From Phanerodontia chrysosporium (Eukaryota; Basidiomycota; Agaricomycetes; Polyporales; Phanerochaetaceae): a DNA stretch of 64,000 nucleotides. The translations under genes were made by a program, and so were the position numbers. Location of the stretch: the NCBI GenBank assembly GCA_001910725.1, contig MJGA01000005.1, positions 1,178,001 through 1,242,000 on the forward strand, written 5' to 3'. The notes beneath the pieces were generated by a model that was not told the origin of the DNA, ran no database searches, and saw only the letters and a program-made list of their open reading frames with translations. Below are positions 10,001 to 38,880 of the stretch, one piece after another; position 1 is the first letter of the stretch, and each line of letters opens with the position of its first letter.

Positions 10001-10070
10001 AGAATGAGTAAATCAAGTTCTTAGAACAGTACCTACGCTGCTTCACTGATAATGTCAATCACGAAGACTG
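7057..10070 (+). pseudogene. Pol of element A, 5' part: protease, RT, RNase H, start of integrase (interrupted)
   Basis: The aspartic protease has LVDSGATMSFI. The RT has FVKKADGSLRPCMDY, the YLDDILIF catalytic motif and FLGFVNFYHRFIKDF. RNase H has STDVSDFVIGSVLSQ and YDKEMLAIIR. The integrase zinc domain (H..H..CDMCQRMK) and core (TIDLITQL, ISDRGTQF) follow. In-frame TGA stops lie at 7872-7874, 9480-9482 and 10005-10007, the last inside QTE*VNQ where Arg CGA is expected. A one-base frameshift lies near 10018-10020. RT motif A reads KIDLQWRY, with Arg where Gly is usual. Element B then interrupts the codon run after W-V. Confidence 0.88.
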
Positions 10071-10075
10071 GGTCG
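10071..10075. repeat. Target-site duplication of element B, left copy (GGTCG)
   Basis: GGTCG is repeated at 18176-18180 just outside the other LTR of B. Removing B and one copy restores the integrase reading EDWVDYLPATEFAYNN of element A across the junction. Confidence 0.95.
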
Positions 10076-10675
10076 TATCACAAAAATGCGCTGCCCTAGC
10101 GCCTATACACCAAACCAACCAGCAATACTCACTGGCAAAGGTTTACTTGGACTACAAAGGGTGTAGCCAGGCTTGAAGACGAGGTATAGAGGCTAGAGAG
10201 GTGAGATGCGATGAGATTGAAGCTGGGGAGGCACCCCCAGCCCTCAGGGTTTATATACATGTGCACCAGGTCCCCAGGGACCGGTGTTCAGGGTCCTAGC
10301 TATCTAATACCTACTACGCTATTGGCTAGTGCCCTACAGGCATTCCTACATTCTCCTACACGTTCCTAAATGTTCCTACGATGTCCCAGAAACCTCCAGA
10401 ACGTTCCAGCACTGTCCGGACCTGTCCAGAGACCTCCAGGGCTTTCTAGTCCATTCCGGAGTGTCTCGGCGCTTCCAGACCCTTGCCTGCTTCTAGACCT
10501 TCGACCATGTGACCCTGGGATACCGCACGTGTGCGCATCACGTGACCGCCGTATCACGTGACCAGCCCCGAGCCTAGGGCTGTCACTCCAGCGCTTCTGC
10601 ATGTCACAGTTCGGAGTAATCGCTTCTGTCACCTGCTGCCCCTAACCCTAAGGGTTGAGACGAAAAACTGTGACA
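10076..10675 (-). repeat. 3' LTR of element B (600 bp)
   Basis: It is identical to 17576-18175 except for three positions, all G here and A in the other copy. In element orientation it starts TGTCACAG and ends GTGATA. U3 begins with a telomere-like block (plus strand CCCCTAACCCTAAGGG, 10640-10655). TATA and the R start AGCTTCAATCT are placed as in the 5' LTR. More diverged copies of this family occur at 40946-41545 and 47005-47075. Confidence 0.95.
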
Positions 10676-10683
10676 TTACCCCC
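10676..10683 (-). other. Polypurine tract of element B
   Basis: In element orientation GGGGGTAA abuts the 3' LTR start TGTCACAG. A has GAAGAGGGGGT and C has AGGAGGGGGGTAA at the equivalent place, so this is the likely plus-strand primer. Confidence 0.7.
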
Positions 10684-10710
10684 AATTCTAGCTGAACCTC
10701 CTGGTGAAGC

Positions 10711-13700
10711 CTAAATACCAGTGGAGCCAAAACCATCGCTGCTGCGAATGGTTGAGTCGAGGCGAGAAACCGGAGTTGGTTCGGCGTAGGAGATTCTTTC
10801 GAGCACGAGTTGAGCGACACGATCACCCTTGTGGAAAGTAAAGGTGTCGGGCGAGTTGTTGACGAGTAGAATTTTGAGCTCCCCTCGATAATCTCGGTCA
10901 ATAACGCCTGCTCCTATGTCGATGCCTCTGAGGCTGAGGCCACTCCGTGGTGCGACTCGAGCGTAGGTACCTGGTGGAGTACACATTCGAAGGCCCGTTG
11001 ACGCTAGCTTGCGATCATGGGGCTTGAGCGTAAGGTCTTCCGTGATGAAAAGATCCAACCCTGCGCTTTCTGGCGAGCCACGTGAGGGGAGTTTTGCGTC
11101 CTTGTTCATGAGCTCGACCTCGAACTGGTCGTCTGCTCCCCAAGATTGGAGTAGCGCGAGTTCGCGCACGAAAAACTCATCCTCCTCGTCGTGGTGGCGT
11201 TGCAGAAGGGAAATTGCCTTCGGCGCATCTGGGTATTTCCTGTGGAATTGTTTGACCTTCGCCATAGCGTGCTTGAGATTGGGCAAGTATTCCCATGTGT
11301 CGCTATGCTCATCGTAGCCTCTCCACCGTACTCGGTACATAACACGGCCTTTAGAGTCTGGCTGTGCATCTACGATCTGCTCGACCTCGTACTCCTCGTC
11401 ATCACCCACACGAATGGGTGGTAGGGGTTTGCGCGTGCGATTGGCAACCTCATCCTCGATGTGCTTCGTGAGCTTGCTTGCGTGGAAGACCGGGTGAATC
11501 TTCACATGGGCTGGTAACTTCAGCTTGAAGGTGACCGGTCCCAGCTGCTCTACGATCTCGTAAGGGCCTACTCGCTTTGGTGCCAGTTTCTTGGAGGGAA
11601 CCCGAAGGTTCAGATCCTTTGCGTCAAGCCAAACACGGTCTCCGACCTTGAACAAGGGTTCTGATTTACCCTGGTCGTAGTACCACTTCATTCGCTCTGC
11701 AGCCAGCATGAGCGCGGCTTTCGCCTGATCTTGGGCCTCCTGTCTAAGCTTCGTCCAGTCGTCCAGTTCTGACAACCTTGTAACACGGTCCTGCTCTGGG
11801 AACATGCGTGGATGACGGCCATATTCGACGAAGAATGGCGAGTTCTTGGTGCTTTCATGCGCCTGGTTGTTGTACGCAAACTCGGCAGAGGGCAAAAGGT
11901 ACGCCCAGTCGTCCTGCCTGAAGCTTGTGTAGCAGCGCAGATATTGCTCCAATGACTGATTAACTCGCTCAGTCTGACCGTCTGCCTGAGGGTGAAACGC
12001 TGTAGTCATTGCTGACTTGATCCCCAGGAGTCTGCACCATTCCTGGAAGAGTTTCGCGGCAAACTGCGTTCCTCTATCCGAAATGATCTGTCTGGGTAGG
12101 CCGTGCAAAGGCCAAACACGCTCATAGAGCAAATTTCCCAGATCCTTGGCTGAAAACTCCTTGGTGATGGGGAGGAAATGTGCTCGCTTGGTTAAGCGGC
12201 AAACGACTACGAAGATAGCGTTGTAACCGTCCGACTCAGGCAAGTCCGTGATCATATCGCATGAGATTATCTCCCAGGGTTCCGACGGAACCTCGTTCGG
12301 TTGTAGCAGGCCAGCAGGCTTCTGGTTGACGTTTTTATGCGACTGGCAGACTTCGCAGCCTGCGACGTACTTCTTGACGTAAACCGACATTCCTGGCCAC
12401 CAGTAGTTGCGCGACAGCAACTCCAACGTCTTCCATCGTCCAGGGTGTCCAGCCCCAGGGAAGTCGTGGTGTAACTTGAGTAGATCCGCCCTAATCTTGT
12501 CGTCCTTGGGCACATACACCTTGCCTCGGTGCAGTAGTAGCCCGTCCTCGAGGTGCCATTCTGCTAAGTCCTTCCCGAACTCTCTTGGTCCTTTCAACAT
12601 CAGGTCTTTGTACGACTTGGTGACTTCGTCGTCCAGCAGGGCTTTTCTGATCCTTTCTAGCAGTTTGCTATCGTCCACTATCGATGAATGGGTTGGTTGC
12701 ATGGCTCGAATCGCAAAATATTCTGGCTTCAAAAGGACTTTTTCACGATTGTCGCAATCCACCCCCAATTCATGATCTGGCCTCCTGGACATTGGATCAG
12801 CCCGCTTCATCGTCTTTCCAGGCTTGTGCTCCAACTTGAAGTGGAAACGTGTGAGGAAAAGACTCCAACGTGCTTGGCGTCGCGTCAAGTCTTGCGCCTT
12901 GCGGAAATAGGTCAAATTCTGGTGATCTGACCATATGTCGAATGGTAGAGGGTGTCCCTCCAAGTGGTGGCGCCATTCCTTCAATGCGCGGATGATGGCT
13001 AGCATCTCCTTGTCGTATATCTCGTAGTTGCGCTCATGTACGCCTAGCGCCTTGGAGTAAAACGCGACAGGGTGCCAAAGGCCATCCTCGCCCAGTTGCT
13101 CAAGTACAGCCCCCGTAGCAAAGTCTGACGAATCGCATTCGAGCCTAAAAGGGTGCTCGTCGTCTGGAATCTTGAGAATAGGCGCAGTAGTGAACGCTCT
13201 TTTGAGTGTATCGAAGGCATCCTGCTGCTTAGGCCCCCATTCCCACTCTTTGCCTTTGCGGGTAAGCTCTGACAATGGGCGAACAATCTTGCCAAAGTCT
13301 CGAATAAACCGTCGGTAGAAGTTAGCAAAACCCAGGAAAGCCTGGACATCTTTGACCCTTTTGGGTATGGGCCAAGATAAAACGCCATCTACCTTCGATG
13401 GATCCATCTGAACCGACCCCTTGCTGATGATCATTCCGAGGTATTCAATGCTATCCGTCTCGAAGAAGCATTTTTCTGGCTTAGCGAACAGGTCATTGTC
13501 GCGTAGCCGCTGCAATACCTCGCGAACTAATCGCCGATGGTGGTCCAAGTCATTCGTGAAGATGAGAATGTCGTCTAGGTAGACCATGACATGCCCTTCT
13601 CGAATCAGATCGTCGAGAATATGGTTCATCATGCGCTGAAAGGTTGCTGGTGCATTGCTGAGGCCGAAGAACATCACTGTAGGTTCGTATAAACCGAAAG

Positions 13701-14867
13701 GTGTGATGAAGGCCAGCTTCCACTCGTCTCCTTCCTTGATTCTGACGTTGTTATACCCCCATCTAAGGTCAATCTTGGTGTATATACTAGCCTTAGATAG
13801 TCGATCTATAAGGTCTGAGATCTTGGGTATAGGGAAGCGGTCTTTCTTAACGACTTCGTTCAGCTTTCTGTAGTCCTGCACCAAGCGCAATGAACCGTCC
13901 TTCTTCTTCACGAAAAAGACTGGTGCTGCCAGCGGGGATTTACTCGGTCTGATGTATCCCTTTGCGAGATTCTCCTGAATCCACTCGTCCAGAGAATTCC
14001 TCTCTTCTGGCGACAGCGAGTAATTACGAGCTGGTCGAGGTAGGGTAGCTCCGTCGATAAACTCGACAGCGTGGTCGTAAGGCTTTCGTACGGGTAACCG
14101 TTCGCTTGCACGCTTCGAAAACACGTCCCCATAGTCTTGATACTGTGCAGGGACAAGCTGCTCCCAGCCCTCGATTCCCTCCAGCGAACGAATACTGCAC
14201 ATCGCTGCGATCTTCCGGCAAGTTAATGCCAAAACGCGGCCATCTGGGGTGGAAGGGTCGACCCACTGGAGCCAAGGCTCCTCTTCTTCCTCCTCGAAGT
14301 CCTCATCCATAGGTTCTTCGAGCTCTGCTTGCGCTACTTGAGCCTTGTGGCTGGTAAAGCGACAAGAATCTGGGCATCTGGAGTACTTCCACTCGCCCTT
14401 ATCCCAATCTATCTCGGGATTATGCTTCTTCAAGTAGCTAAAGCCGAGGAACATGTCCTTTCCACCCAGATCTGTAATGAGGCATGCTTGTCTGGAGACA
14501 TGGTCCCCTACGGCTACGTCGAGCCAAGCGTACTCCTCAATACTGCCACACTTGTTCCTGGAGCCATCTGCGTTGTAAACGCGTATCTCCCTGGCCAGCT
14601 GGTTCGTCTTCAGCTTATGCTTCTTGACGAAGCGATGGCTAATGAACACAGCATAGGCCCCTGAATCAACCAGCGCGGTAGTCTGCACTCTGATTTCCTT
14701 ACCCTGACTCAAAGTTACTGGAACGATAAAGCTCGATTTAGAGGGTAAACTAGAGACTTTTCTCGATTCCAAAACTGATCTAATACATTCTACTGAGTCG
14801 GGAGGGTAAAGGAAATCTAAAAACGGACCAGATGTCGCAGACTCTACATCGGTCCCTGCAGAAAATC
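10711..14867 (-). CDS. Pol of element B: protease-RT-RNase H-integrase-chromodomain-dUTPase
   Basis: The frame opens after a TGA just upstream of the slippery site and runs unbroken to 10711; no ATG is needed because it is -1 to gag. Counting residues from 14772: aspartic protease ALVDSGAYAVFI (about 34-45), RT with KIDLRWGYNNV and VYLDDILIF (about 397), RNase H LECDSSDFATGAV, integrase zinc finger (HH..CEVCQSHK, from about 765), and core DDE in CDMITDL, SDRGTQF and QTERVNQ. The chromodomain is near 1125-1175 (VMYRVRWRGYDEHSDTWEYL). A C-terminal dUTPase domain (about 1214-1353) carries all five family motifs: ESAGLDL, RSGLSLRG, GVIDRDYRGE, GDRVAQLVLE and RSSDGFGSTG. dUTPase cleaves dUTP to dUMP and would limit uracil in cDNA. 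All catalytic residues I can check are present. Confidence 0.93.
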
Positions 14868-16424
14868 CTCATCGTCTGAGAATACCACGCGGTTAATCTT
14901 CTGCGCCTTCTCCTTCGAAGACGACTTCTTCTTTTGCTTGGTCTTGGGGGTATCTTCTTCTTCTGAGCTATCTGAGCTCGATTCCTCGTCAGAGGCTACC
15001 TCCTGGAATCTCTCCGAGTCACTGGCGTACACCTCGCGCACGCTGTTCTTCGTGTGGCGAGAGCCCTTATCCTTCTCCTTTCCCTTTGAAGGCGAAGCCT
15101 TTGACGAACTGGCCACCGGTGCATTGGTGGTTTTACTCGACGACGTCGAAGAACCTGGGTTGTTCTTCTTCGATGGACACTCCTTGGCGATGTGGCCTTT
15201 GCCTCCACACTGAGCGCAGCAGCCTTTCTTCTTCGCCTCCTCGAACGACATGGCAACCTTCTGAACTTTGGCTGTCTTGCCTTTACCCTGGGCTGAGCCC
15301 TTCTTCAAGGCGTCGACGTCCATAGCGTCAGGGTCTTTCGACGACTGAGGCTGTCCAGAGAGTACGGTGCCCGTCAAGAGACGTTGATCCTGCAGAATCT
15401 CCTGAACATCCTTCAACCAACCATCCCAGGTCGTAGCCCACTGAGCACGACCACGGGCTGCCAGTACATCGGCGGCGGCACGAGGGGTATGGGCATAGGC
15501 TTTGACCAACAGTTCCTCGTTGGAGAAGCCAGTTTGGCGAGCCAGCGAACGGAAACGAGCAGCAAACTCATTGAAAGTCTTCTCGTTCGTTCCTTTCTTG
15601 CTGACAAGCTGCTCAAACTCTGCCCTTGCCCTGTCCTTCTTGTCGGTCTGTTGGAATCCTTTCTGGAGTTCGTTCACAAAGTTGGTCCAAGTACCAAGGG
15701 GCTTTGAGTCTGCCACCTTGTCGAAGTACTCTTGCATGACCTTCTTTGCTGAACCTCGCAGGTAAGTCATCGCCGTCTCTATCTTCTTTTCGTCGTCCAT
15801 TACGCCACGGTGGCGCAACCAGAGTGCCATCGACTCGAGCCAGTCATCCAGCTTACTAGCCTTATCACCATTAAAGGTGTCAGGCTCCTTCATGGTAGGG
15901 AACAAAGACTGAGACAACCCAACGTTGCCTCCACTAGTGCCTTGCTGAACCAACACTTTCAAGCTCTCGTTCTCCTGCTTCAGCACCTGCATAGCGTTCT
16001 GCAAAACGCGATTTTGGTTCTGAGCCTCTGCTATCTGCGCAGACAAGTGCTGTCTAGTCTGCTCAAGAGTGTCTATCTGCTCCTGAAGTGTCTTGGCCTC
16101 AGTTTTGCGTTTGCGAAGGGCTTCCTTCAAGCGAAGGACTTCTGAACCCATTTCCGACCTTACTTGAGCTATCTCAGCCTTTACCCAGTTACCCAGGCTG
16201 TCAACGAGGGCCTTGAAGTCGCCAGGAGTCAGTCCTTCCTGAGCGGCTTGTACCCATGACTGGCTGTACTCTTCGTAAGAGGTCGAAAGCGGCGCAGCGG
16301 CCAAAACTGGGGTAGGGCCTCCCTCAGCCATAGAGCCGAGTTCTAACGCTCCCCAAGGGTCCATACCACTTGAACTCGCAGCAGAACGCAAACCAAAGTC
16401 AACAGGATTTGAATTGAGCGACAT
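14844..16424 (-). CDS. Gag of element B, 526 aa
   Basis: Capsid/nucleocapsid precursor. A long coiled coil lies at about residues 75-150 (repeated QEQIDTLEQ- and LKQENESLK-like heptads). The capsid core includes EPDTFNGDKASKLDDWLESM. A CCHC zinc knuckle CAQCGGKGHIAKEC (CX2CX4HX4C) follows, then a Ser/Glu/Asp-rich tail (SDEESSSDSSEEED). The start ATG is at 16424, 29 nt after the pre-gag stop. It ends QGPM* and overlaps the -1 pol frame by about 25 nt. Confidence 0.92.
   Translation of the reverse strand: MSLNSNPVDFGLRSAASSSGMDPWGALELGSMAEGGPTPVLAAAPLSTSYEEYSQSWVQAAQEGLTPGDFKALVDSLGNWVKAEIAQVRSEMGSEVLRLKEALRKRKTEAKTLQEQIDTLEQTRQHLSAQIAEAQNQNRVLQNAMQVLKQENESLKVLVQQGTSGGNVGLSQSLFPTMKEPDTFNGDKASKLDDWLESMALWLRHRGVMDDEKKIETAMTYLRGSAKKVMQEYFDKVADSKPLGTWTNFVNELQKGFQQTDKKDRARAEFEQLVSKKGTNEKTFNEFAARFRSLARQTGFSNEELLVKAYAHTPRAAADVLAARGRAQWATTWDGWLKDVQEILQDQRLLTGTVLSGQPQSSKDPDAMDVDALKKGSAQGKGKTAKVQKVAMSFEEAKKKGCCAQCGGKGHIAKECPSKKNNPGSSTSSSKTTNAPVASSSKASPSKGKEKDKGSRHTKNSVREVYASDSERFQEVASDEESSSDSSEEEDTPKTKQKKKSSSKEKAQKINRVVFSDDEDFLQGPM
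14862..14868 (-). promoter_or_regulatory. Candidate -1 frameshift heptamer GGATTTT, gag/pol of element B
   Basis: The gag frame reads GAG GAT TTT CTG, giving G GAU UUU. The pol frame is -1 and has a TGA directly upstream, so a slip must occur in the 25 nt between that TGA and the gag stop at 14844-14846. The same heptamer is used at the equivalent place in A. Confidence 0.65.
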
Positions 16425-16453
16425 CTTGATTCAAAAACGCGCAGATACAAAAA

Positions 16454-17266
16454 CTAATCGAGGTTCTTCTCCAAAAACAACCAATCTTCACCCAACTCCT
16501 GAATCAGCTCCCTGCAATGCTCAGCGAAGCGTGGCTTAAGCTCAGCGAAGCTATGTGCGCCTGCCTTCTTCAAATCCCTCGAAATCTTCTTCCACTCCCT
16601 CGTGGTGTACTCCTTCGTCTCGACGATGGTCTGAAGGTGTTTGCGAATGTTGTCGAACCTCTCCTTGAACAAGCCCAAGGTGTAGAGCTCGTGTTCAGTC
16701 AACCCAACTCGAAAACGCTGCTCGTCTAGCTTCTGAAAGAACGGACCCAAGTGGTTAAGGGCGCCGTTGAACTTTCGTCCGTAGTCGCGCAGCTGATGGA
16801 CCTGAGTGTTGGTGTGAAAACGAAGGTCTTTGGGAATGGGTTTGACTTCGATAGGGGGAGTAGGGGGAGGTTCAATACGTTCGATGAGGGGTAGAGGGGG
16901 AGGGGCGTTCGCGATGCGATCGAGTAGGCGGCGCTTGCGCTGTTCGTTGCGATAGTCTTCGAGCTGAAGCTGGTGCTTGAAGTCGTTCAAGTCTGCTTCA
17001 CGAGCAAGCCTTTCACGACGACCAGGGACAGGGGTGTAGGGTGTAGTGCGAGGTTTGTACGCAGGGCGCGGCTTCCCAACGTCTTTGAAGCGGTGAAGGT
17101 TCGAGATCTTGATGCGCTCAAGCAAGGGTTTGCCAGAGCTCTCGTCCTTAGCAAGGACAAAACGGTTCCTAGCAGCTTTAGGCACTAGTAAACACGGGTC
17201 AGCCTGTGTACACAAGCCAGAAAACTTCTCCACACAGGCAAAGCGCAAGGCTTTCCTGCCAGCCAA
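16454..17266 (-). CDS. Pre-gag ORF of element B, 270 aa, unknown function
   Basis: Complete ATG-to-stop frame between the 5' leader and gag. It is basic at the N-terminus, proline-rich in the middle (PPPLPLIER, EPPPTPPIE) and helical at the C-terminus, with a TTREWKKISRDLKKAG block followed by RFAEHCRELIQEL. The C-terminal block matches the ORF at 4566-5351 of element A and more distantly 38037-38747 of element C. The LTRs of B are nearly identical, so the open frame alone says little about selection; the conservation with A is the better argument. Its relation to known retroelement accessory proteins is unknown to me. Confidence 0.75.
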   Translation of the reverse strand: MAGRKALRFACVEKFSGLCTQADPCLLVPKAARNRFVLAKDESSGKPLLERIKISNLHRFKDVGKPRPAYKPRTTPYTPVPGRRERLAREADLNDFKHQLQLEDYRNEQRKRRLLDRIANAPPPLPLIERIEPPPTPPIEVKPIPKDLRFHTNTQVHQLRDYGRKFNGALNHLGPFFQKLDEQRFRVGLTEHELYTLGLFKERFDNIRKHLQTIVETKEYTTREWKKISRDLKKAGAHSFAELKPRFAEHCRELIQELGEDWLFLEKNLD

Positions 17267-17562
17267 CCCTCAACGAAGAGAAAGGGGTATTACTGCGGGT
17301 TTCCACGCCACGCAGCTAAAACTGGTTGGACAGGGTATTACACCCTTAGTCCAGCACTACAACAGGGGTTACTCGTCCGCAGGCAAAGCCCTCTGAGGTG
17401 GGTTACACCACGTTCCCCTGTCTGTACCTAAAAAGGTACTATAGTGCCCACTTACGCCTGTGGATCGGCAGAAAACTGAACAAAGCGCAAAAGCACTTGT
17501 TCAAACAAGCCCCCAGAACCCAAAGCAATAACCTAGGCCACCAAAGGTGGAGTAGGTTGGCT

Positions 17563-17573
17563 AGCTTCAATCT
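17563..17573 (-). other. Self-priming primer-binding site of element B
   Basis: In element orientation AGATTGAAGCT starts 2 nt after the 5' LTR. It is a perfect 11-nt complement of AGCTTCAATCT, which lies in the LTR at 17714-17724, about 30 nt downstream of the TATA box (17751-17757). That is where the transcript should start. Confidence 0.85.
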
Positions 17574-17575
17574 TC

Positions 17576-18175
17576 TATCACAAAAATGCGCTACCCTAGC
17601 GCCTATACACCAAACCAACCAGCAATACTCACTGGCAAAGGTTTACTTGGACTACAAAGGGTGTAGCCAGGCTTGAAGACGAGGTATAGAGGCTAGAGAG
17701 GTGAGATGCGATGAGATTGAAGCTGGGGAGGCACCCCCAGCCCTCAGGGTTTATATACATGTGCACCAGGTCCCCAGGGACCGGTGTTCAGGGTCCTAGC
17801 TATCTAATACCTACTACGCTATTGGCTAGTGCCCTACAGACATTCCTACATTCTCCTACACGTTCCTAAATGTTCCTACGATGTCCCAGAAACCTCCAGA
17901 ACGTTCCAGCACTGTCCGGACCTGTCCAGAGACCTCCAGGGCTTTCTAGTCCATTCCGGAGTGTCTCGGCGCTTCCAGACCCTTGCCTGCTTCTAGACCT
18001 TCGACCATGTGACCCTGGGATACCGCACGTGTGCGCATCACGTGACCGCCGTATCACGTGACCAGCCCCGAGCCTAGGGCTGTCACTCCAGCGCTTCTGC
18101 ATGTCACAGTTCGGAGTAATCGCTTCTGTCACCTGCTGCCCCTAACCCTAAGGGTTAAGACGAAAAACTGTGACA
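17576..18175 (-). repeat. 5' LTR of element B (600 bp), with promoter
   Basis: Nearly identical to 10076-10675. In element orientation it carries TGTATATAAACC (TATA box, near 17750-17760), then about 27-30 nt later the predicted transcription start AGCTTCAATCT. The termini are TGTCAC and GTGATA, so one end departs from the usual CA. Confidence 0.95.
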
Positions 18176-18180
18176 GGTCG

Positions 18181-19313
18181 ATTATCTGCCCGCCACAGAA
18201 TTCGCCTATAACAACGCAGCACACGAAAGTACAAATGACACACTGTTCTTTCTAGAATATGGTAGACACCCACCGGCAGAACCAACTCTCGACAAGCAAG
18301 CCAAAAGCAAAGACTTGAACGAGATATTCAGACTTAGACAAGACGCCCAAGACAAGGCCAAAACAGCCCTACAACTAGCAGCGGACCGTATGAAGTGGTA
18401 CTATGACCAGAACAAGCAAGAAGGGCCATTTAAAGTCAGCGACAAAGTCATGCTGAATTTAAAGGACTACCAAACCACTCAACGCACGCTGACACCGAGG
18501 TACCTAGAACCGTTAGAAATTATTGAACAACTATCCAAAGTAACCTTTAAGGTAAAATTACCTCCACAATACAGGGCATATCACCCGGTGTTCCATGCTA
18601 GTAAATTAATCCTCTATTCTATACCCTCCATCGTCAGCCAACGAGCTGCACCACCAGAACCAGAAGTTCATGACAAAGAGTTCGAGTACGAGGTTGAGAA
18701 AATTCTCAACCACAAGACTACCAGGTGTGTCAGAAAACAAAACTGGTACATGGTTCGATGAAAGGGTTATGGGCCAGAAGAAGACAAATGGGAATCAGAG
18801 AGTAATCTGAAAGGTGCTAAAAAGAAGATTGCGGAATTTTGGCGCATTCGGAATGAAGAAACACCTATGGAAACAGACGGTTTAGAACTCGATGAAGAGG
18901 AAACCCTTCAGATCATTCTAGATGGTGGAAAAACACCATCCAAGAGCACCACCAAGGCAGCAGGCTGAGACCTGTATGCAGCAGAAGATGCAATAATTCC
19001 AGCAGGAGACTGCAAACTCATCAGCACTGGTATTCACATCCGAGTCCCAACTGGAACCTATGGACGAATTGCACCACAATCAGGACTTGCACTCAAAGGC
19101 ATTCATGTTGGCGCAAGTGTTATCGACTGGGACTACACAGGCATTGTCAAAATACTACTCCTTAACACAAGCAACAGTGACTTTACAGTCACGACTGGAG
19201 ATAGGGTGGCTCAATTGATTCTAGAGAAAATTGCCGATGCTGACATAGAAGTTGTCGAAACAGTACAGTCAACTGATCGTGGTTCAGTTGGGTTTAGATC
19301 CACTGGAAAATAA
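18181..19313 (+). pseudogene. Pol of element A, 3' part: integrase C-terminus, chromodomain, dUTPase
   Basis: It resumes the integrase after element B (DYLPATEFAYNNAAHEST). The GPF/Y-like region (KVMLNLKDY, PVFHASKLI) follows, then a chromodomain interrupted by TGA at 18759-18761 where Trp (TGG) is expected (MVR*KGYGPEEDKWE). A dUTPase has a TGA at 18966-18968 inside motif I (AAG*DLYAAE). The remaining motifs APQSGLALKG, SVIDWDYTG, GDRVAQLILE and GSVGFRSTG are readable. The domain order equals that of B. Confidence 0.88.
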
Positions 19314-19339
19314 AAGTCTTCTCTCGGGAGTTCGAATCT

Positions 19340-19350
19340 GAAGAGGGGGT
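19340..19350 (+). other. Polypurine tract of element A
   Basis: GAAGAGGGGGT lies just before the 3' LTR start TGACACAG at 19353. Confidence 0.65.
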
Positions 19351-19352
19351 AC

Positions 19353-19882
19353 TGACACAGTTGTTTAATTCCCTACGGTTTTATTTTCGTAAACACCCAG
19401 TAGACGCTAGGGGTTAGGGTTATAGATTAGGATTAGGACAGGCACGCGTCAGAACGCGGTCACGTGTTGATCACGTGTTGGGAATGCACTCAGAGTCATG
19501 TGAGGATCTTATCTTTATCTTATCTATGATGTAGATGCTCCGGTACAAGGTTATAGTAGGTAACCGAACCCAGGATCCGGGTAGTGTATTCTAAAATAGT
19601 GTAGAAGGTTCCGGACACATCCAGTACTTGGCTTTAGACTTCGCTGAGCCCGGAGTGTCTTGGAAAGTATTGCACCATCATTACGCCATCGCGCATGTGA
19701 TGGGCAGTATCAAGGGTCTCAGGTAGTACCAGGGGTCCTCCCCTTCATGTATATATGCCGGGCTCTGCTGGGCTTAAGTCCCCAGTATCATCTACCTCGT
19801 CTTTTACTTACTTCACTTGCACCACTCGCAGTCAAGTTACCCCACTAAGCTACTAAGGTAAGTAGCAGAGTTTACTTTGACA
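19353..19882 (+). repeat. 3' LTR of element A (530 bp)
   Basis: Counterpart of 3262-3780, with an extra short TTATCT-type repeat and scattered substitutions. It starts TGACACAG, ends TTTGACA, and is followed by the TSD ATAAC (19883-19887). Confidence 0.92.
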
Positions 19883-20893: not shown

Positions 20894-20898
20894 GGCAC
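20894..20898. repeat. Target-site duplication of the fold-back unit, left copy (GGCAC)
   Basis: GGCAC is repeated at 22113-22117. With the unit and one copy removed, an open frame FAFQPGGTTYVTLLFLRN reads through the site. Confidence 0.9.
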
Positions 20899-22112
20899 TG
20901 TCACGGATGTGACGGCGCAGCCCTATTTTTCGCCGATTTCTGGCTATTTTCCTCGATTAATCCAACGGGCAAGCAGCCCTCGCGCCGTCTGGAGTCCTAG
21001 CCGCCCACACTCAGCGCCTGGCCATTCAGCGCCAGCGCCCTGATGGCGCATCACCCCTAGACGCCAGCGCATCCCGCCGCGTGCTCAGACACTGCCCGGA
21101 TCACCGGTCTGCCTTGCAACCGGTTCCCTGGATCGCCGAAGTGGCACTGTCATCCCTGATGACTCCCTTCGCCAAGACACGCCGAGCTGATCAGCCTGAT
21201 GACACAGCCTCGGCCCGACGCAGCCTCGAGACACTGCCAGCTGACCCTGCCTCGTGACATAGCCCCCGCACAGCCTCGCCGCGCAGTCCACGTCGCAGCC
21301 TCGCTGGCTATGCCAAGCACTGCCCATCAGCTTAGGTAATCGTACAGCCTGCCCTAGAGTACTGTAGTATATAAGGGTAGCTCCCCTCGCTCCTGTCCAT
21401 TATCTCGACCTAATATTGCGGAGCAAGGGCTCAACGCCGCACGAGGGAGGGCAGATGGGGAGGACGATGACGAGGCGCGGCGGAGCGAGTCACGCAGCGA
21501 CGGGCAACTTATTCAGCTGTCCGTATTGACCAAGATACATTAGCACGCTATGCTACTATACAAACTGAGCCTCAGCTTACCTGTCCATATTGACCAAGAG
21601 GTCGAGATGATGGACAGGAGCGAGGAGTGCTACCCTTATATACTACAGAGTCTTTAGGGCAGGCTGTACGATTACCTAAGCTGATGGGCAGTGCTCGGCA
21701 TAGCCAGCGAGGCTGCGACGCGGACTGCGCGGCGAGGCTGTGCGGGGGCTATGTCACGAGGCAGGGTCAGCTGGCAGTGTCTCGAGGCTGCGTCGGGCCG
21801 AGGCTGTGTCATCAGGCTGATCAGCTCGGCGTGTCTTGGCGAAGGGAGTCATCAGGGATGGCAGTGCTGCTTCGGCGATCCGGGGAACCGGTTGCAGGGC
21901 AGACCGGTGATCCGGGCAGTGTCTGAGCACGCGGCGGGATGCGCTGGCGTCTAGGGGTGATGCGCCATCAGGGCGCTGGCGCTGAATGGCCAGGCGCTGA
22001 GTGTGGGCGGCTAGGACTCCAGACGGCGCGAGGGCTGCTTGCCCGTTGGATTAATCGAGGAAAATAGCCAGAAATCGGCGAAAAATAGGGCTGCACCGTC
22101 ACATCCGTGACA
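20899..22112. mobile_element. Fold-back unit: C-family LTR + PBS + inverted U3
   Basis: Both ends are the same LTR terminus (TGTCACGGATGTGACGG and its complement), and a 5-bp TSD GGCAC flanks the unit. 21414-22112 is a complete minus-strand LTR of the C family (699 bp). 20899-21410 is an inverted copy of only its U3 and first R bases, about 512 nt. The two are joined by ATCTCGACCTAA (21402-21413), which on the minus strand is the C-family primer-binding site TTAGGTCGAGAT. The inverted copy starts exactly where the 10-nt PBS/R complementarity ends. It has no coding capacity. The arrangement LTR-PBS-inverted U3 fits a PBS that folded back on its own R sequence and was extended, then integrated by integrase. 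Confidence 0.88.
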
Positions 22113-24588
22113 GGCACCACATATGTAACTCTATTGTTTCTTCGCAACCCTTACTTCATTCCACACTCCCTGGAGTAGTACGAGATGTTTACGGAGTGCT
22201 ACGACTTCACTACTTGCAGCATACACACCAGAACTCCTATGAAAACAAATGCCACGCTGCTGGCCACCAATGACACTGTTGTGATTGAATTCTGCATTCG
22301 CAAAAATGGCCTTCAAACTCGCAAGTACGAAACTCTCTTTCTTGTGACACATATTGTGTGCATTGCCAAGTCTAACTCTAACCCCCCCCCCCTGCTACGT
22401 GATTACTCATGCAATTTGTCCTTGTATTTGTAACTTTGTCCTGCCCATGCTCAAATCAATGCCACCCACTGCCAACTATAGCAGTATCTCAGCCTCCAAA
22501 TGTGTACTTGTACTTGTATCTTTGTCCTGCCCTGCTCTGAATGTGAAATCATTATGGAATTGTATCACGACGTTGCAGAATGTACGTAGGACATGAGTGA
22601 TGCTACGTGGTATGGTGGCTGCCCATAATCCTTCGCCTGCGTTGAAGTCAGCATGATTTGATGCGACGTCTGCGATGCTCATCAGTGAGAACATGGCCCA
22701 TTATATCACCTCCCTGTGATGCGTATGGCAGGTAAGCCATACCATCCTGACAAGCCAGGTTGTCCACGAATGTTGTCAGCAAGGAGTCAGTCTGAGTGCA
22801 CGGTCACATACCCATTGTCCGGTTGTTTTCCATTACTGGTCCACGTGAGTTGGGATTACAATAGTTCAGTCTTCGATTGTCCAATGCTGTAATCGGCCGA
22901 ACGATGTTAAGGCTACACTTGTTCGTCCTTCACGCTTCACACCCTGCTCCCAATATCCTTCTCACATGTTCCTTTGTTTCACGTCACGTAGTCTCCAATT
23001 GCACCGACTATCCTGTCAGTCAGGTCAGAGGCAATGACTCCTTGCCTGGCCTCTTATCGTTGGCGAGGTAGAGACAAATGGTTCATTCCCACTCTCAACT
23101 GTTAACATTCTCCCTTAGTGTTGACCTCAACAATGTTCATTATCTGCAGCGGTTGACAAGATACAGTGCTTCAAGTGGAGTCGCTCCCTCTCACATTGGG
23201 TCAATGTAGGTCGGAGTGGTACTTGTTTCAGGTCAGTCTGAGTATTTAATGCCTTGCTTACTACTCGCCGAGCCCCCGTTACACTTCCTAACGTCTATGC
23301 AGCACAAATTATTGCAAGATGCAACAGATCTTGTCCTTTGCTGCCAACCTTCTTTGCTGGTGACTACGCCCCGTGAGATATTGACCCATGTAAGTCGTCT
23401 ACTCGTTTATGTACTCTGTTTAACAAAGTATCTTCACCAGGTCACTTTCCACCTGCAACCATTGGACTTACTGAATCTCAGGAAGACATGTCGCAACCTA
23501 CGTTTTGTGGTGTTCAGTCAACATTTCAGACGGTCATGGACCATCGCATGAAGTAACTTCACATCACCGTTATTCCACTGTCTGCTGTTTCTGTCAGAGT
23601 CCGCTCTTGCGAGTCTTCTGTTCTGCTCCGTCTGCGCAGTAACTTCCACAATTCTTCTATTGTGGAAGTTGTCCTAATCATCAGGACTAGGTCTATGGAA
23701 AAGATACCCACACGCACCTTTTCTGAAACATTTATGCTCGACACTGCAATGATTGCGTTTCATGGTAAACATCGTGTTCATCTCCTTTTTATATCTTGGA
23801 TCTCATTATTATCTCATAGGCTGATCACATGCATTCACAATGATCCGTACATCCACAAATTGCTCGACGCTGACATTCTGTATCCCCTATCCCACCTGAA
23901 ACCTTGGATGGTCGTACCAGTTGTCCTCCACTACCACACCAACCTCATTCACTCATTACAGAATAGAACACCCAGCATATACCAGTACGACTATAGCATT
24001 GTTACGTTCTGGTTACAGGAGTTGGACAATGCACTGAAGGAAACATCGCTCGAAGGGCAGTGTGGGTTAATCGTAGAAAGGGTAAAAGCATTGAGAGCCA
24101 CTAGAGAAGTACGTATCTGCCCACATTTGCATCACTGCTACTCTGACAGAGATAATAATGTCTCATTACTCTTATGAAGTGGTGGGACGCTTACGAGGAC
24201 ACTGTATTCAGTTGAAAGAACGTCCTTAGTCGGAATCGAACCACTTTCTTTTTTAGACTGCACAATATAGATGGCCGAGCAAGACCATGTAAGATCTGAG
24301 CCATATATTATGAGGTTGATAAACACCTGCCCTAATGTATATTGCGTGTGGACAGTTCTGTAGTTTTCACAAATATGTACCATATGGTGCCCAACGCTGT
24401 GAATTCAGCTCGTCGTCTCGGTACACGCATTAGTGTTTTGTGCAGAGCATTATATCTGTTCTCACTGTACAGTCCAGCACTTTGCACGCTCATACGTCAT
24501 CTGCTACACACGCTCGACATCGACAGTTCTACTGTACAGGCATCTGTCCTTGGCTGAGAATGTTGGTTCTGCGTATGGTGTCACTAGG
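22113..24588. other. Gene-poor region with scattered decayed ORFs
   Basis: It contains a poly-C run near 22384, an imperfect local duplication around TTTGTCCTGCCC (22434 and 22523), and several short ORFs without recognisable motifs. 23662-24177 is open for 171 aa (VVLIIRTRSMEKIPTRTF, YDYSIVTFWLQELDNAL) but I recognise nothing. No LTR, complete tRNA or conserved domain was seen. Confidence 0.4.
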
Positions 24589-25928: not shown

Positions 25929-26623
25929 TGTCGCGAAGCGAAGGCTCAACGCTTCACAAGGGAGGACAGATGGGGAGGTCGACGACGAGGCGCGGCGGAG
26001 CGAGTCACGCAGCGACGAACAAACTTGTTCAGCTGTCCGTATTGACCAAGTTAACATTAGCAAACTGGTCTACTATACAAGCTGGGGCTTACCTGTCCGT
26101 ATTGACCAAGAGGTCGAGATGACGGACAGAAGCGAGGAGTGCTACCCTTATATACTACAGAGTCTTTAGGGCAGGCTGTACGATTACCTAAGCTGATGGG
26201 CAGTGCTCGGCATAGCCAGCGAGGCTGCGACGCGGACTGCGCGGCGAGGCTGTGCGGGGCTATGTCACGAGGCAGGGTCAGCTGGCAGTGTCTCGAGGCT
26301 GCGTCGGGCCGAGGCTGTGTCATCAGGCTGATCAGCTCGGCGTGTCTTGGCGAAGGGAGTCATCAGGGATGACAGTGCCACTTCGGCGATCCAGGGAACC
26401 GGTTGCAAGGCAGACCGGTGATACGGGCAGTGTCTGAGCGCGCAGCGGGATGCGCTGGCGTCTAGGGGTGATGCGCCATCAGGGCGCTGGCGCTGAATGG
26501 CCAGGCGCTGAGTGTGGGCAGCTAGGACTCCAGACGGCGCAAGGGCTGCTCGCCCGTTGGATTAATCGAGGAAAATAGCCAAAAATCGGCAAACAATAGG
26601 GCTGTACTGTCACATCCGTGACA
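25929..26623 (-). repeat. 3' LTR of element C (695 bp)
   Basis: In element orientation it starts TGTCACGG and ends CGCGACA. It has the same length as 38881-39575. U3 is about 95 percent alike between the two, while the U5 side (plus-strand first 180 nt) is clearly more diverged. The flank CAGAA (25924-25928) does not match the flank at the other end. Confidence 0.9.
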
Positions 26624-26640
26624 TTACCCCCCTCCTAAAA
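26624..26640 (-). other. Polypurine tract of element C
   Basis: In element orientation TTTTAGGAGGGGGGTAA abuts the 3' LTR. Confidence 0.65.
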
Positions 26641-26662
26641 CCGAGCGTCCTCGCGAGGTCGT

Positions 26663-29600
26663 TTAGATGTGGCGCCCCTCCTCCCAATCGAGATTGGCCT
26701 TGGCGCGATCAGAGGCAGAAAGGTGGGAGACGTCGACTTCAGTGACGAACGGGCGAAAGGAGGCAGCGAGGGCTTCGAAGGTGGTGGCAGCGAGCTTGCA
26801 GGGCGCTTCCGGATTTTGGCGATGGAACTTGTTGACCAGAGCTTTGGCGTGCTTGAGGTTGTCTGCCTTTTCCCACATGTCGCCGGCTTGGCCGTAGCCT
26901 TTCCAGCGGACTTTGTACTGCAGTTGGCGGCGGTATATGCAGCTGTCGAGGATCTTCTCGACGACGTATTCTTCTTTGCCGGCAACCTTGACAGGTTTGG
27001 GAGGCAGGAGCTTCTCGACGCCCTGATCGTGCCACGGGCTGAGGCGGTTGACATGGAAAACCGGGTGGATTTTCAGCCAGCTCGGGAGCTCGAGCCGATA
27101 GTCCAGATCGCCGATCTTTTCCAGAACCTTAAACGGACCTAGCTGGCGGGGGCCAAGCTTGAGCGAGGGTTGATCGATGCTGAGGTCCTTCGTGCTGAGC
27201 CAAACCTGATCGCCGACTTTGAAGGAGTGGGCGCGTTTCTTCGCGGCCTCGTACTCTTCTTTCATGCGAGCCTTGGTAAGGCGCAGGGCAGCTTCGGCCT
27301 CTTTGCGAATGTGAGCCATGCGGTCTAGGCGCTCATCGAGGGCGGGAACCTTGGTGTGTTTGCCGGCCAGAATCGTGAAGTCTGGTGTGTAGCCGTAAAC
27401 AATTTCGAAGGGCGTGCGCTCGGTAGCACTAGACACGTGCGAGTTCAGGGTGAACTCAGCCATCGGGAGCCAATCGACCCAGTCGTCTTGGCGCTGGGAG
27501 ACAAAGAGACGCAGGAATTTCTCGACTTCCTGGTTCTTGCGCTCGACCTTGCCGTTGCCTTCGGGGTGATACGCCGTGGTGAGACCGGTAGCGATGCCGA
27601 GGCGCTTGTATAGCGCTCGCATGTACTGGGCTGCAAACTGGGGTCCACGATCGGAGAAGATCTTGCGTGGGAGGCCGTGAAGGCGGAAGATGTCCGTGTA
27701 GTGGACGTCGCCCATGCCGGCAGCGGTGATCGTCGAGTCGACCGGCACAAGGTGGCACTGATCCGAGTAGTGGTCCATGTAGACCGCGATCGAGTCCTTC
27801 TTGGTCTTGGCGTCGCGTGGGAGCTGCGTGATGAGATCCACGCCGACGTGTTCCCAGGGCCCTGAAGGGACATTGTGGGGCTGTAGGGTGGCTTTCGGAT
27901 GTGGGGCGGACTTGTACCGTTGGCATTGATCGCAGCCGAGCACATAGTGGTTAATGTCGGCGGAGATGCGCGGCCACCAATAGTACCGAGAGACTAATTC
28001 GAGGGTGGTGTGCTTTCCAGGGTGTCCGGCAGTCGGCGCATCGTGGCAAGACTTGATGACGTCGTTGCGCAGCGCGGCACTGTTCGGGACATAGACTTTC
28101 CCATGGTAGTACAGAAGGCCTTTGTCTTCTTCCCATTCGAGAACGCCGTTGCGCAGCTTGCGGGGCCCCTTGGTCCGGAGAACCTGCAGAGCATCTGCGA
28201 CTTCCTTTTCCTTTTCGGAACAGTCGCGAATGCGCTTCTCGAGGGGGGAGGGGTTTGCGAAGGCTGCCGTGGTGGCTATCTTAAACAGCTCTGGCTTCAG
28301 TACTACCTGCGAGCGATTGTCTTCTTCATCGGAGACGTGCAGCGAGGAGGGCCGGGAGAGCGGGTCAGCGAGGAGATGCGTCTTGCCGGGGCGGTGGATG
28401 ATGCGGAAGTCGTACTCGGCGAGGTAGGAAGCCCACCGGGCTTGTCGCCGCGTGAGATTCTGCGCAGTCTTCCAGTACTGGAGATTCTGATGATCGGTCC
28501 AGATCTCGAAAGGCTCCGGGAGACCTTCGAGGAACTGGCGCCAGTCCTTGAGAGCTTCGATGATTGCAAGCATCTCACGGTCCCAGATCTCGTAGTTCCG
28601 CTCGGCGGGGCTCATGGTCTGCGAGCGATACGCGATTGGATGCCAGAGACCATCTTCAGGGTTGCGTTGGGCTATGACTCCTCCGGTGGCGTAGCCAGAA
28701 GCATCGGTCTCGACGCGAGTTGGCCGATCAATGCTCCACATGGCGAGCACGGGCTGAGTCGTGAAAGCGTGCTTGAGCGTCTCGAAGGCTTCTGCCTGTG
28801 CGGGACCCCAATTAAACGGAGTGTCCTTCTTCGTCAGATCGTGCAGCGGGCGGCAGATCTTTGAGAAGTCTTTGATAAAACGGCGATAGAAGTTGGCGAA
28901 CCCGACAAAGCCTCGTACGTCTTTGAGGTTCTTCGGGGTCGGCCACTCGGCTACAGCCTTAACCTTGCCAGGGTCCATGCCGACTTGTCCTTCGCTGATA
29001 AGGAGCCCAAAATATTCGATCTCTGAGCGCTCGAACTCGCACTTCTCGGGCCGGAGGTACAGATCGTACTTGGCGAGGCGTGCCAGGACCTCGTGAACAA
29101 TCTTCCGATGCGAAGCGAGATCGTTCGACCAGATGAGAATGTCGTCAAGGTAAACTGCGACCTTGCTCTCAGCGATGAGGTCGGCGAATATGTGGTTCAT
29201 AAGGGCCTGGAACGTGGCGGGGCTGTTGCACAGACCGAAATACATGACTCTGGGCTCGAAGAGGCCGCGGTTGGTGACGAAGGCAGCTTTCCACTCGTCA
29301 CCTTCCTTAATCCGGACGTTGTTGTAGCCCCAACGGACGTTGAACTTAGTGAAGATCTTAGCACCCTGGAGCTTCCCAATGATGTCGGAGGCGAGCGGGA
29401 GGGGGTACCGATTCTTCACAGTGATGTTGTTGAGCTTGCGGTAGTCTTGAATGAACCGGAGCTTGCCGTCCTTTTTCTTGATGAAGAAGACAGGGGAAGC
29501 GATCGAAGACTTGCTGGGGACGATATAGCCCTTGGCGAGTGCATCGTCGATGAACCGCTGTAGTTCTTCATTCTCGATCAGGGACATGGGATAAACCTTC

Positions 29601-29903
29601 AATTTGATCGAGGCCGGGGCGTCCGGAACGAGATCTATCGCGTGATCCCAGGGCTGATGCTTCGGAAGGCGGTGTGATTCCTCTTCAAAGAACACCTTCT
29701 TGTGTCGGTGGTACTCTTTGAGAACCAGCTCTTCGAACGTCTTGGTGTACTTCTCGCGATTGGCTTCAACAGCGATCGCTTGCGAGTAAGTGTAGCCGGC
29801 GAGAATCCAGACTTCGTCCTTGGCGTCCTCAACAATGCCTGCTCGAAGCCATTCACGGCGTTTGGAGCGGTTGGCATCAATCTGATGGATACCGAAAACC
29901 GGG
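26663..29903 (-). pseudogene. Pol of element C, 3' part: RT-RNase H-integrase-chromodomain
   Basis: Continuous open frame from the junction with D (GIHQIDANRSKRREW) to the stop at 26663. RT: FFIKKKDGKLRFIQDYRKLN and VYLDDILIW are present, but motif A reads FTKFNVRWGYNN with Asn in place of the catalytic Asp. RNase H: VETDASGYATGGVI. Integrase: HDAPTAGHPGKH, CDQCQRYK, GVDLITQL, SDRGPQF, GNGKVERKNQ. Chromodomain: YKVRWKGYGQAGDMWE. It ends EEGRHI* with no dUTPase. The frame is otherwise undamaged, so the Asp-to-Asn change is a specific lesion, unless it is a sequencing error. Confidence 0.87.
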
Positions 29904-29908
29904 GTGAG

Positions 29909-30339
29909 TGTAACCCGACTGCTCGGGTTACAACGGACTTTCTAGCACAACAACGGACTTTCTAGCACAACAACGGACTTTCTAGCACAACCACGGACTA
30001 TAGTAGCGTACCTGACTCAAACACGGACCCATAGCTACACATAACGCGCCCGCGCATCACACTCCTTCCCCTTTCGTATTGCTCCCGCTACTCTTTCCCC
30101 TTTTATCCAGAACCCGCCTTCGTCGTCATCGCCCCTCCGTCCAAACCTTGTTTTTCGTTCCCTTATATTCCTCGCCCTCGAGCCGTGGTCTCTAGTCTCT
30201 TTCCCCCGGCTCGAAGGTATGCCCCCTTTTATGTCTCTTGACCAACTTGTATTGAGTCTCTTTCCCCCGGCTCGAAGAATATATCTTGTGCCCGTTCATT
30301 GCTCGAAATTGAGTGACTCGCATGCACCGCGAGCTTACA
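29909..30339 (+). repeat. 5' LTR of element D (431 bp)
   Basis: It starts TGTAACCCGA and ends CTTACA, with TGTAA/TTACA termini. It matches 35450-35860 with two substitutions; the 20-bp length difference is one extra unit of a tandem repeat (ACGGACTTTCTAGCACAACA; three copies here, two in the 3' LTR). Positions 29909-29932 form a perfect inverted repeat, TGTAACCCGA and TCGGGTTACA around 4 nt. CTCTTTCCCCCGGCTCGAAG occurs twice near the 3' end. Confidence 0.93.
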
Positions 30340-30649
30340 CTTTTTTTTGAACGTCACACAAGTTTTCGAAGAGCTGGTGGTACCCCGCGCTACCACCGCT
30401 ACCGCCTCCGTCTTACGTCTCCGTCCCTCCGTCGTCGCACCGTAACCGCAACAGCCGTTCGTCACTCTGGCGGACGACCTGAGCTTCGCATCCGATCTCA
30501 CACCGATATCGGATGAGTTGGAATCTGAGTTCGAGCAGGAAGAGGTGCAGTACCTCCCGTTGCCACCCTCGCCCTCTCCCTCTACGTCCTCTTCGTCATC
30601 CTCTTCGTCTTCCGACTCCGCATACACCGCATATACCCAACCGCACACG

Positions 30650-33600
30650 ATGGATCCGAAGAAGAAGATCGCTACTGTCATGTCGCAAGGCGCCAAGCAC
30701 GTCCCGAGGCTCTCTCCGGGTACGGTCACGCCTGATGCGCTGCTCACGTTCCAAATGGCGTGTATGCACTTCTTCAACCACAAGGAGGTCGCCGACGACA
30801 AGCGAGTGGCCGCGATCGCACCCGGGTTCGAGGACCCTTATATCGCCACCTGGTTGTTCACCAACGAAACCCGCCTCAAGGCTCTCACCTATTCAGACTT
30901 CTGGGTAGAGTTCAAGAAGCGTTGGTTGAAGAAGACCTGGGCGGACGATATCAAGGCGGAAATCGTCCACGCGCACATGTCCGACGACCAGGACTTCGAT
31001 GGTTGGGTGGAGAACCTCGAACGCCGAAACACGCTCCTCGTCGACACCGACCAACACTTGTCGGAAGCCGCCCTACGCGAACACATTAAGACGCATGCCT
31101 GTCAAGATCTCCGCAAGTATGCGATCTCCGACGTAGGCAAGGCCGTCACCGACTATGACGAATTCAAGGGCAAACTGTCCGAACTCGACGAGGACCGCCG
31201 TCGTCGCCGCGCCGAAATTCTCGCTGCCATCGCCGCCGCGGCACCTGCCCGCAAGCCGGCTACGACGGTCCCGAAGTCAAACTCGAACAACGCCTCGACT
31301 TCGGCGACGCTACTGCCCAAGCTCACCCCGGCGGAACGACAGTACCTCGATGCCAATAGCGGATGTTACAAGTGTCGCAAGGTCAACGTCACTCATCGTT
31401 CCCGAGAGTGCCCAAACGGATACCCGGACGCGCGCACCTACGTCTCGCCCATGCCCGGCAACGCCACTACGACTAAACCGACCCGTGTCGCCGCCGTAAC
31501 GACCGTCGAAGATTCCGCGCCTACGGCACCGGAGCCCATCGTCATCGCTGCGGTCAAGGGCCCGAGCGCGCTCCCGTCTTGCGTGCTTAGCTCCCCCGAC
31601 GATGATCAGTCCTCGTCAGACGACGACACCGGGTGCGTCCCCGCCAATCTTACATCACACCACATCCCCTTCCGTGCTGTTGTCCATTCGCCCATCACCA
31701 TCTCCCATGAAGTTCCCATGCTGATCGACTCTGGTTCACCAGCCGTACTGGTTGACGCTGCCTTCGCGTCAGCTATCGGCTTGCGTCTACGCAAGCTACC
31801 AGAACCAAAGTCAATGGGAACCGCTTGGGGTGGAAATGAACAGCATGCATCAGAGTGGTGTAAGATTAGGGTGTCTCTACCGGATATGTCATGGACATCG
31901 CGCACCGTCTCCGCGATCGTCGTCGACAATCTCTTCGTCCCTGTAATATTAGGACTCCCCTTCTATAAGCATAACGACCTGTTAATCGATCCTGTCCACG
32001 ACGCGCTCGTCATCCGCTCCACCGGACGCGATATTCTACACGATCCTCCGCCACCGCCGAAGCCACCCTCATTGTCGCCCAAGCAACGGCGTGCAGAGCA
32101 ACGAGAGCGCGAGATCGAACAACAGGAACACGAAGTGTTAGAAGCGTGGCGAATTTGGACCATACAACGAGACGTCTTGCGCGAGCTCAAGATGCTCTTC
32201 GGCGAGCCCTTGCACCCGCAGGGCGACACGACAACCCAAGTCGACGTCCTCGCTGCGGTCCGCACACGCGTCGAAGAGTTGGCCATCGAACAACGTCTCC
32301 AACGCGAGAACGAGATGTTGCGCGCACAGTTCGCGGACTGCTTCCCCGACGACATTCCACCCGTGCACCAACTGCCCGACAATATCCTTCACCGCTTCCG
32401 CCTGAAGAACCCTGATATGGTCATCGCTAGACGGCAGTATGAATGTCCTCGCAAATATCGGGAAGCCTGGAAGCAACTACTCGAGCAACACATCGCTGCC
32501 GGTCGGATCCGCCCCTCGTCCAGTCCCTACGCGTCACCTGCCTTCCTCATTCCAAAGTCTGATCCCACCGCCCTTCCCCGTTGGGTTAACGACTACCGCG
32601 CCTTGAACGCCAACACCATCGCTGACGTTCACCCGCTACCGAGCATAGCGGAGATCCTGGCCGACTGTGGAAAAGGAAAGATCTGGGGCAAGATCGACAT
32701 GACGAACTCGTTCTTCCAGACTCGCGTACATCCCGACGACGTACCCTACACCGCTGTCACTACACCCTTCGGCCTGTTCGAATGGACAGTCATGCCCCAA
32801 GGCTGCCGTAACGCACCAGCGACACATCAGCGACGCATGTTCTCAGCACTGCGCCAACACATCGGCACCATCTGTCACGTCTACCTTGACGACATCATTA
32901 TCTGGTCCAACTCCATCGACGAACACCGCGACAACGTTACACAAGTCCTCGAAACCTTACGACAACACCAACTTTATTGCTCCCCCAAGAAAACCCAACT
33001 TTTCGCCTTCGAAATCGACTTCCTCGGACACCACATCTCTCAACGCGGCATCGAAGCGGACGGCTCCAAAGTGGACAAGGTACTCGCATGGCCGCGGCCT
33101 CGAAACGCTAAAGACGTTCGTTCCTTCCTAGGCCTGGTTCGCTACATCTCGAACTTCCTACCGGCACTTGCTGACCATACGAGGATATTGAACGGGTTGA
33201 CAACCAAGGAATCTGACCGCGATTTCCTTTGGACAGATGCACACGAGACCGCGTTCAACGCTGTCAAACGCCTCGTCACTTCACGCGAGTGTCTCACGGT
33301 CATCGACCATCAGAACATGGGCGACAACCGCATCTTCGTCTCCTGCGACGCCAGCGACTGGTGCACAGGCGCCGTTCTCTCGTACGGACCGACCCTCGCC
33401 ACTGCGCGACCGGTCGCCTACGAGTCAACCACTCTCAAGGCCGCCGAGCTCAATTACCCCGTCCATGAGAAGGAACTCCTCTCGATCGTGCACGCACTCA
33501 AAAAGTGGCGAGTAGACCTGATCGGTGTTCCGTTTACAGTCTACACTGATCACCGCACGCTCGAGAACTTTGAGACGCAAAAGCATCTCTCGCGCAGACA

Positions 33601-35416: not shown

Positions 35417-35436
35417 CCCCCCTGATGAATTTTTCG

Positions 35437-38878: not shown

Positions 38879-38880
38879 AA

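Follow-up and report, generated by a model that had tools for sequence, protein, structure and literature searches.

A single LTR-PBS-inverted U3 unit in Phanerodontia chrysosporium, a probable by-product of self-primed reverse transcription

Positions 20899-22112 of the window (the whole 64-kb stretch of Phanerodontia chrysosporium DNA analyzed here) are occupied by a 1.2-kb unit which consists of one long terminal repeat (LTR) of the chromodomain Ty3/gypsy retroelement family C, a spacer, a primer-binding site (PBS) and an inverted U3, with GGCAC on both sides. Its parts, together with the flanking duplication, are as follows:

20894-20898, no strand: left copy of the target-site duplication, GGCAC, 5 bp
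20899-21401, plus strand: inverted U3 arm, 503 bp, with terminus TGTCACGGATGT; 97.1% identical to the U3 in the LTR of the same unit, and its sister in a tree of 51 U3
21368-21377, plus strand: promoter-like TATATAAGGG in the inverted arm, the R-start 10-mer of which begins 34 bp after the start of this motif
21402-21411, minus strand: PBS 10-mer AGGTCGAGAT, the switch point; read on the plus strand, it is the R start ATCTCGACCT
21412-21413, minus strand: spacer between LTR end and PBS, TT on the minus strand (AA/TT), the same in the ordinary family C copies read
21414-22112, minus strand: complete C-family LTR (U3-R-U5), 699 bp
21599-21608, minus strand: R start ATCTCGACCT, the self-primer sequence
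21633-21642, minus strand: TATATAAGGG of the LTR
22113-22117, no strand: right copy of the target-site duplication, GGCAC, 5 bp

This layout, including the 5-bp duplication, agrees with an earlier note on the same DNA, as does the observation that the switch from PBS to inverted U3 lies exactly where PBS and R start, which match over 10 nt, cease to do so. Both outer termini of the unit read TGTCACGGATGT. TGTCAC, which follows the polypurine tract (PPT) in ordinary 3' LTRs, forms the exact end of the arms, and the family C PPT precedes neither end of the unit. The unit carries no gag-pol and no second direct LTR, its ends being two U3 termini. The U5 terminus of its LTR is ATA, whereas 48 of the 50 distinct LTRs, with limits set by script, have ACA there. 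Two facing TATATAAGGG motifs, each followed by the R-start 10-mer, are kept in the unit, so that both sense and antisense LTR transcripts are possible.

The unit fits none of three known classes with which it was compared. It resembles a solo LTR in being a lone LTR flanked by a 5-bp duplication, but retains, between the duplication copies, a PBS and an inverted U3 following the LTR, which LTR-LTR recombination alone would not leave. Assignment to TRIM or other short LTR elements was rejected, given that the second copy comprises U3 only, is inverted, and, like the first, has no PPT before its end. Foldback and MITE-like elements have long inverted arms and a target duplication, features shared by the unit; however, the arms here are LTR U3 sequences with no transposase family, and one copy was found instead of several at different sites.

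Family C is represented in the window by a second, much longer copy (element C), and the same stretch holds elements of other families:

25929-39575, minus strand: element C, used as comparator; it has gag, pol and an LTR at each end, and a nested plus-strand element with a pol of its own lies within it
29901-35860, plus strand: nested chromodomain element, in which pol is an open frame of 1632 aa and the LTRs are near-identical
10076-18175: family A element, LTRs of 600 bp, 99.5% alike, duplication CGACC, located inside family B
3262-19882: family B, LTRs 16 kb apart with matching outer 5-mer ATAAC, enclosing the family A element

A domain search of element C (26663-29695) returned RVT_1, RT_RNaseH, rve, SH3_Tf2-1 and Chromo, and gag was recognized too; family C pol has the reverse transcriptase, RNase H, integrase and chromodomain expected of a Tf1/sushi self-priming chromovirus. 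In Tf1/sushi chromoviruses, such as Tf1 of fission yeast, the RNA has a self-primer at its 5' end, which base-pairs with a PBS lying downstream of the 5' LTR, as described in PMC10085805. The unit shares with this group, as portrayed there, the self-primer/PBS pairing and a parent with a chromodomain integrase, and all its parts derive from such an element; unlike a member of the group, it consists only of the parts listed above, with two U3 termini as ends. The family C PBS is complementary to the R start over 10 nt, the complementary sequence beginning 34 nt after the start of TATATAAGGG, and the R start lies 33-34 nt past the TATA motif in families C, A and B alike. In the predicted fold of element C RNA, the first 10 nt pair with the PBS, in the minimum-energy as well as in the centroid structure; compared with 200 shuffled sequences, the complete fold lies 2.0 sd below the mean, and 6 of the shuffles do equally well or better. 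We thus take family C to be self-priming in the manner of Tf1/sushi elements, on the basis of this predicted pairing and of a transcript that would start at the R start. The same arrangement is present in family A, in which the PBS AGATTGAAGCT and the R start are complementary over 11 nt, and in family B, with a match of 10 out of 11 nt; for the nested element at 29901-35860, no PBS/LTR complementarity of at least 8 nt was detected in the stretch searched.

Ordinary 5' LTRs of family C are followed by TT-AGGTCGAGAT-CTYTTGG, element C itself reading CTTTTGG after the PBS, as claimed previously, and the 3' LTRs are preceded by a PPT ending GGGGGTAA. The U3 and U5 termini of the family are alike (TGTCACGGATG for U3 and, for the commonest kinds of U5, TGTYGCGGAGC), which makes a U3 end a plausible stand-in for a U5 end and a pair of U3 ends a plausible integrase substrate. 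Element C has 43 substitutions between its LTRs and unmatched outer 5-mers, unlike most copies read, and the U3 of its 3' LTR groups with the arms of the unit in the U3 tree (96/88). Two other family C copies, on C26 and C36, have a common 3' flank and different 5' flanks, a pattern which suggests recombination or an assembly effect.

To what extent family C leaves a 5-bp duplication was assessed in copies with both complete LTRs read (16 from the pair list and the L073 pair). The outer 5-mers match in 14 of these 17, the exceptions being the L073 pair, the C26 copy and the window's own element C; the LTRs of C13 (15 kb apart) and C1d (22 kb apart) were paired after their flank agreement had been seen, and without both the count is 12 of 15. 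Among 13 LTRs listed apart, L011, L037 and L064 carry a PPT, i.e., are 3' LTRs, and were left out; the outer 5-mers match in 9 of the remaining 10 lone LTRs. Thus, the duplication size of family C is 5 bp. Two random 5-mers from the 64-kb window agree with a frequency of 0.00118 (200000 draws). The unit has the hallmarks of an integrase-mediated insertion, namely, a family-sized duplication and exact LTR termini. The joined flanks of the unit, used to seek an empty site in this genome of one strain, match only the locus itself, and no empty site was found. Given the self-priming structure of family C and its 5-bp duplications, it is very probable that a single molecule with U3 at both ends was integrated, and the U3 termini at both ends together with the duplication support the earlier proposal of integration, as one event, by the machinery of the family.

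Searches of the genome studied (39.0 Mb, 145 contigs) recovered the unit as one copy. Pattern AGGTCGAGATNATGGACAGG, which marks every U3/R border, occurs at 502 places with up to 3 mismatches compared to 9 for the reversed pattern, and there are 132 ordinary LTR-PBS-leader sites of family C at up to 2 mismatches. By contrast, the junction of LTR end, PBS and inverted U3 occurs, at up to 3 mismatches, at one place, the unit, and a search with a shorter LTR end and at most 1 mismatch again returned the unit only. An exact LTR-end-PBS sequence lacking the C of the leader next to it is present at 2 places, the unit and C113:166648-166661, but the latter is an ordinary copy with an altered leader base and was rejected as a second unit. 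The mirror junction, with inverted R before the leader, has 0 matches in family C. In family A (87 exact PBS sites for reference), the best 100 of 178 places at up to 3 mismatches to the fold-back junction all have 3 mismatches and are ordinary U3/R borders; since these matches are ordered from the fewest mismatches up and start at 3, we take it that there are none with 2 or fewer. In family B, for which the PBS of the pattern was set fully complementary, one base off the window copy, there were 0 matches at up to 3 mismatches, in a search without a positive control and with B copies uncounted. Diverged or otherwise joined units could escape all these patterns. The class of small mobile inverted repeats envisaged in the earlier note is thus not borne out in this genome, with one copy against 132 ordinary sites and, under the mismatch limits applied, no example from families A and B; the unit is a single by-product rather than a demonstrated mobile class.

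Several tail-to-tail LTR arrangements were also considered. On C69 (L070, 2889-4999), a family C 3' LTR abuts an inverted copy at a point 11 nt inside the leader of that copy, and 2 more R-U5 fragments in opposite orientation come next. This pair was rejected as a second fold-back, as the LTR end joins the leader of another copy and the locus reads as an ordinary nested insertion. About 7 kb upstream there is an ordinary 5' LTR-PBS site. Tail-to-tail family A LTRs with a constant spacing of about 775 bp are present at 3 places among the matches listed (L081, C64:156900-159200; C2:741431-742234; C48:403-1202). The C64 pair, in which an LTR is followed by 481 nt of internal sequence and an inverted 3' LTR with its PPT, was likewise read as a nested insertion and not as a fold-back, and the 3 sites possibly represent one nested insertion in duplicated sequence.

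In the alignment of the arms, suggested earlier as a check, they match, including the 10-mer, over 515 columns at 97.1% identity; they are not identical, with 14 mismatches and one gap. For comparison, 72 complete LTRs, some overlapping, were read from the fetched loci and element C of the window, leaving out 8 loci which cover the unit itself. These comprise 50 distinct LTRs, one of which has no R motif and was dropped, so that 49 U3, a part of a family with about 500 U3/R borders, were compared with the 2 arms. The arms are sisters in the resulting tree (support 99/93) and share a state at column 74 which is absent from the 49 other U3. Their differences are clustered at columns 217-253 and 393-505; the first cluster is preceded by 198 identical columns, and 139 more separate it from the second. 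Different copies, too, can combine long identical runs with many differences: runs of at least 198 columns are found in 35 of 1176 U3 pairs, same-element pairs included. Of the 15 differing columns, 11 have alleles that both recur in 2 or more of the 49 other U3, which points either to a pair of related source molecules or to a one-molecule origin followed by gene conversion. A single hairpin product with identical arms is not demonstrated.

As a control, U3 substitutions were counted in 14 ordinary elements with matched duplications (0, 0, 1, 10, 0, 0, 3, 0, 1, 0, 10, 2, 7 and 0); 11 of the 14 have 3 or fewer, compared to 14 in the unit. Three of the 14 have 7 or more and were examined by column. 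In C1c (C1:1957-1967 kb), both alleles occur in at least 2 other copies at 12 of 13 differing columns, whereas the same measure is 4 of 10 in C111 and 1 of 7 in C137. These elements indicate that patchwise change inside one element occurs, though it is not usual.

We consider it probable that the unit is a by-product of self-primed reverse transcription which arose by misdirected plus-strand transfer. Ordinary LTR elements make plus-strand strong-stop DNA with a primer copy at its end, through which it anneals to the identical terminal sequence of the minus strand. In family C, the 3' end of plus-strand strong-stop DNA (U3-R-U5-PBS) would stop at the copy of the RNA's 5' end, and the normal acceptor in the second strand transfer would be the minus strand's 3'-terminal 10-mer ATCTCGACCT. 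However, the primer of a self-priming element is its R start, so that an identical acceptor lies inside every plus strand. The strong-stop end may have annealed to the R start either in cis, on the same strand, or in trans, on another plus strand in the particle, and extension through U3 to the PPT-defined 5' end would yield U3-R-U5-PBS-U3'. The second strand could then be completed, e.g., if a minus strand annealed at the PBS and copied U5-R-U3; a second plus strand might pair with the new U3', with flaps removed after integration, and integrase would insert the product by its two U3 ends, making the 5-bp duplication. Annealing at the R start followed by extension to the PPT/U3 border explains the switch point, the termini and the lack of a PPT at both ends, and the template would have been plus-strand DNA rather than RNA because copying of genomic RNA would continue into the PPT. 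The position of the switch, at the end of the 10-nt match, also supports the earlier suggestion that the junction was set by the self-priming complementarity. Further points in favor of misdirected transfer are the predicted pairing of the first 10 nt of the RNA with the PBS, the distance of the R start from the TATA motif, the family-sized duplication, the likeness of U3 and U5 termini and the sister relationship of the arms. Counting against it are the single case, the non-identical arms, the failure to find such a junction in families A and B and the 0 matches to the mirror junction in family C. Since both alleles exist elsewhere at 11 of the 15 differing columns, an origin from one molecule would need later conversion, or else the event took place in trans.

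A related aberration has been described in HIV-1, in which, according to PMC4668388, minus-strand strong-stop DNA is self-primed with the involvement of the TAR stem. Both cases imply aberrant self-annealing of a strong-stop intermediate; unlike the minus strand and TAR stem of that account, the unit would involve the plus strand and the self-primer match, and is an integrated product. No description of an LTR-PBS-inverted U3 arrangement was found in the open-access literature searched, which is weak evidence of novelty.

The strictest version of misdirected transfer, advanced in the earlier note, is an intramolecular snap-back producing arms which were identical at birth and later altered by gene conversion. 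We regard it as possible yet doubtful, and its probability forms part of that given to misdirected transfer as a whole. The sister relationship of the arms (99/93) and their 198 and 139 consecutive identical columns speak for it, and a conversion-like change inside one ordinary element was seen in C1c, with 12 of its 13 differing columns having both alleles elsewhere. However, the 14 substitutions of the unit exceed the 3 or fewer typical of duplication-matched elements, the arms differ at 15 columns, and the claim of a hairpin with two integrase-ready ends does not hold as it stands: a snap-back hairpin has one duplex end, so that 2 such ends need a further, unseen step, and the hairpin alone leaves the two-ended duplex unexplained.

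The closest competitor to misdirected transfer, which we consider unlikely, holds that a single concerted reaction inserted 2 cDNAs from the same particle into the target, each through its U3 end, after which their tails were joined and the palindromic middle was deleted between direct 10-mers AGGTCGAGAT, one being the PBS of one cDNA and the other the inverted R start of the second. Such an insertion accounts for the duplication, the two U3 ends and the two arm haplotypes, and the same 10-mer provides a ready microhomology, but it takes 3 steps, with most of two elements lost at just this 10-mer, and no intermediate was recognized among the loci viewed in a search that was not systematic. Considerably less probable are 2 independent family C insertions in opposite orientation, later fused by deletion between the same 10-mers. 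The arm differences are indeed alleles common to other copies, and nearby opposite insertions, read as nested, occur in this genome; the GGCAC match would, however, have to be due to chance (0.00118), and the arms are sisters sharing one state absent from the 49 other U3. Host repair of an integrated copy broken just past its PBS, with fold-back priming at the R start and end joining, is hardly credible, for even if the same 10-mer could act as primer, copying would have run beyond U3 into the left flank and left an inverted flank, which is absent, the direct 5-bp repeat being present instead, followed by flank that matches nothing else in the genome.

If misdirected transfer is the right explanation, the unit is the integrated fossil of a second strand transfer gone astray, a failure which depends on self-priming, and two U3 ends can serve as an integration substrate in family C. 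An LTR-PBS-inverted U3 junction with a 5-bp duplication would then be a countable signature of how frequently this failure occurs in any genome bearing Tf1/sushi elements. More speculatively, self-priming LTR elements may carry a built-in hazard, in that the acceptor of the second transfer is also the R start, such that a small share of particles would yield inverted units with two U3 ends which integrase accepts. The facing TATA/R-start promoters of such a unit could give sense and antisense LTR RNA, and these accidents might thereby seed RNA silencing of the family.
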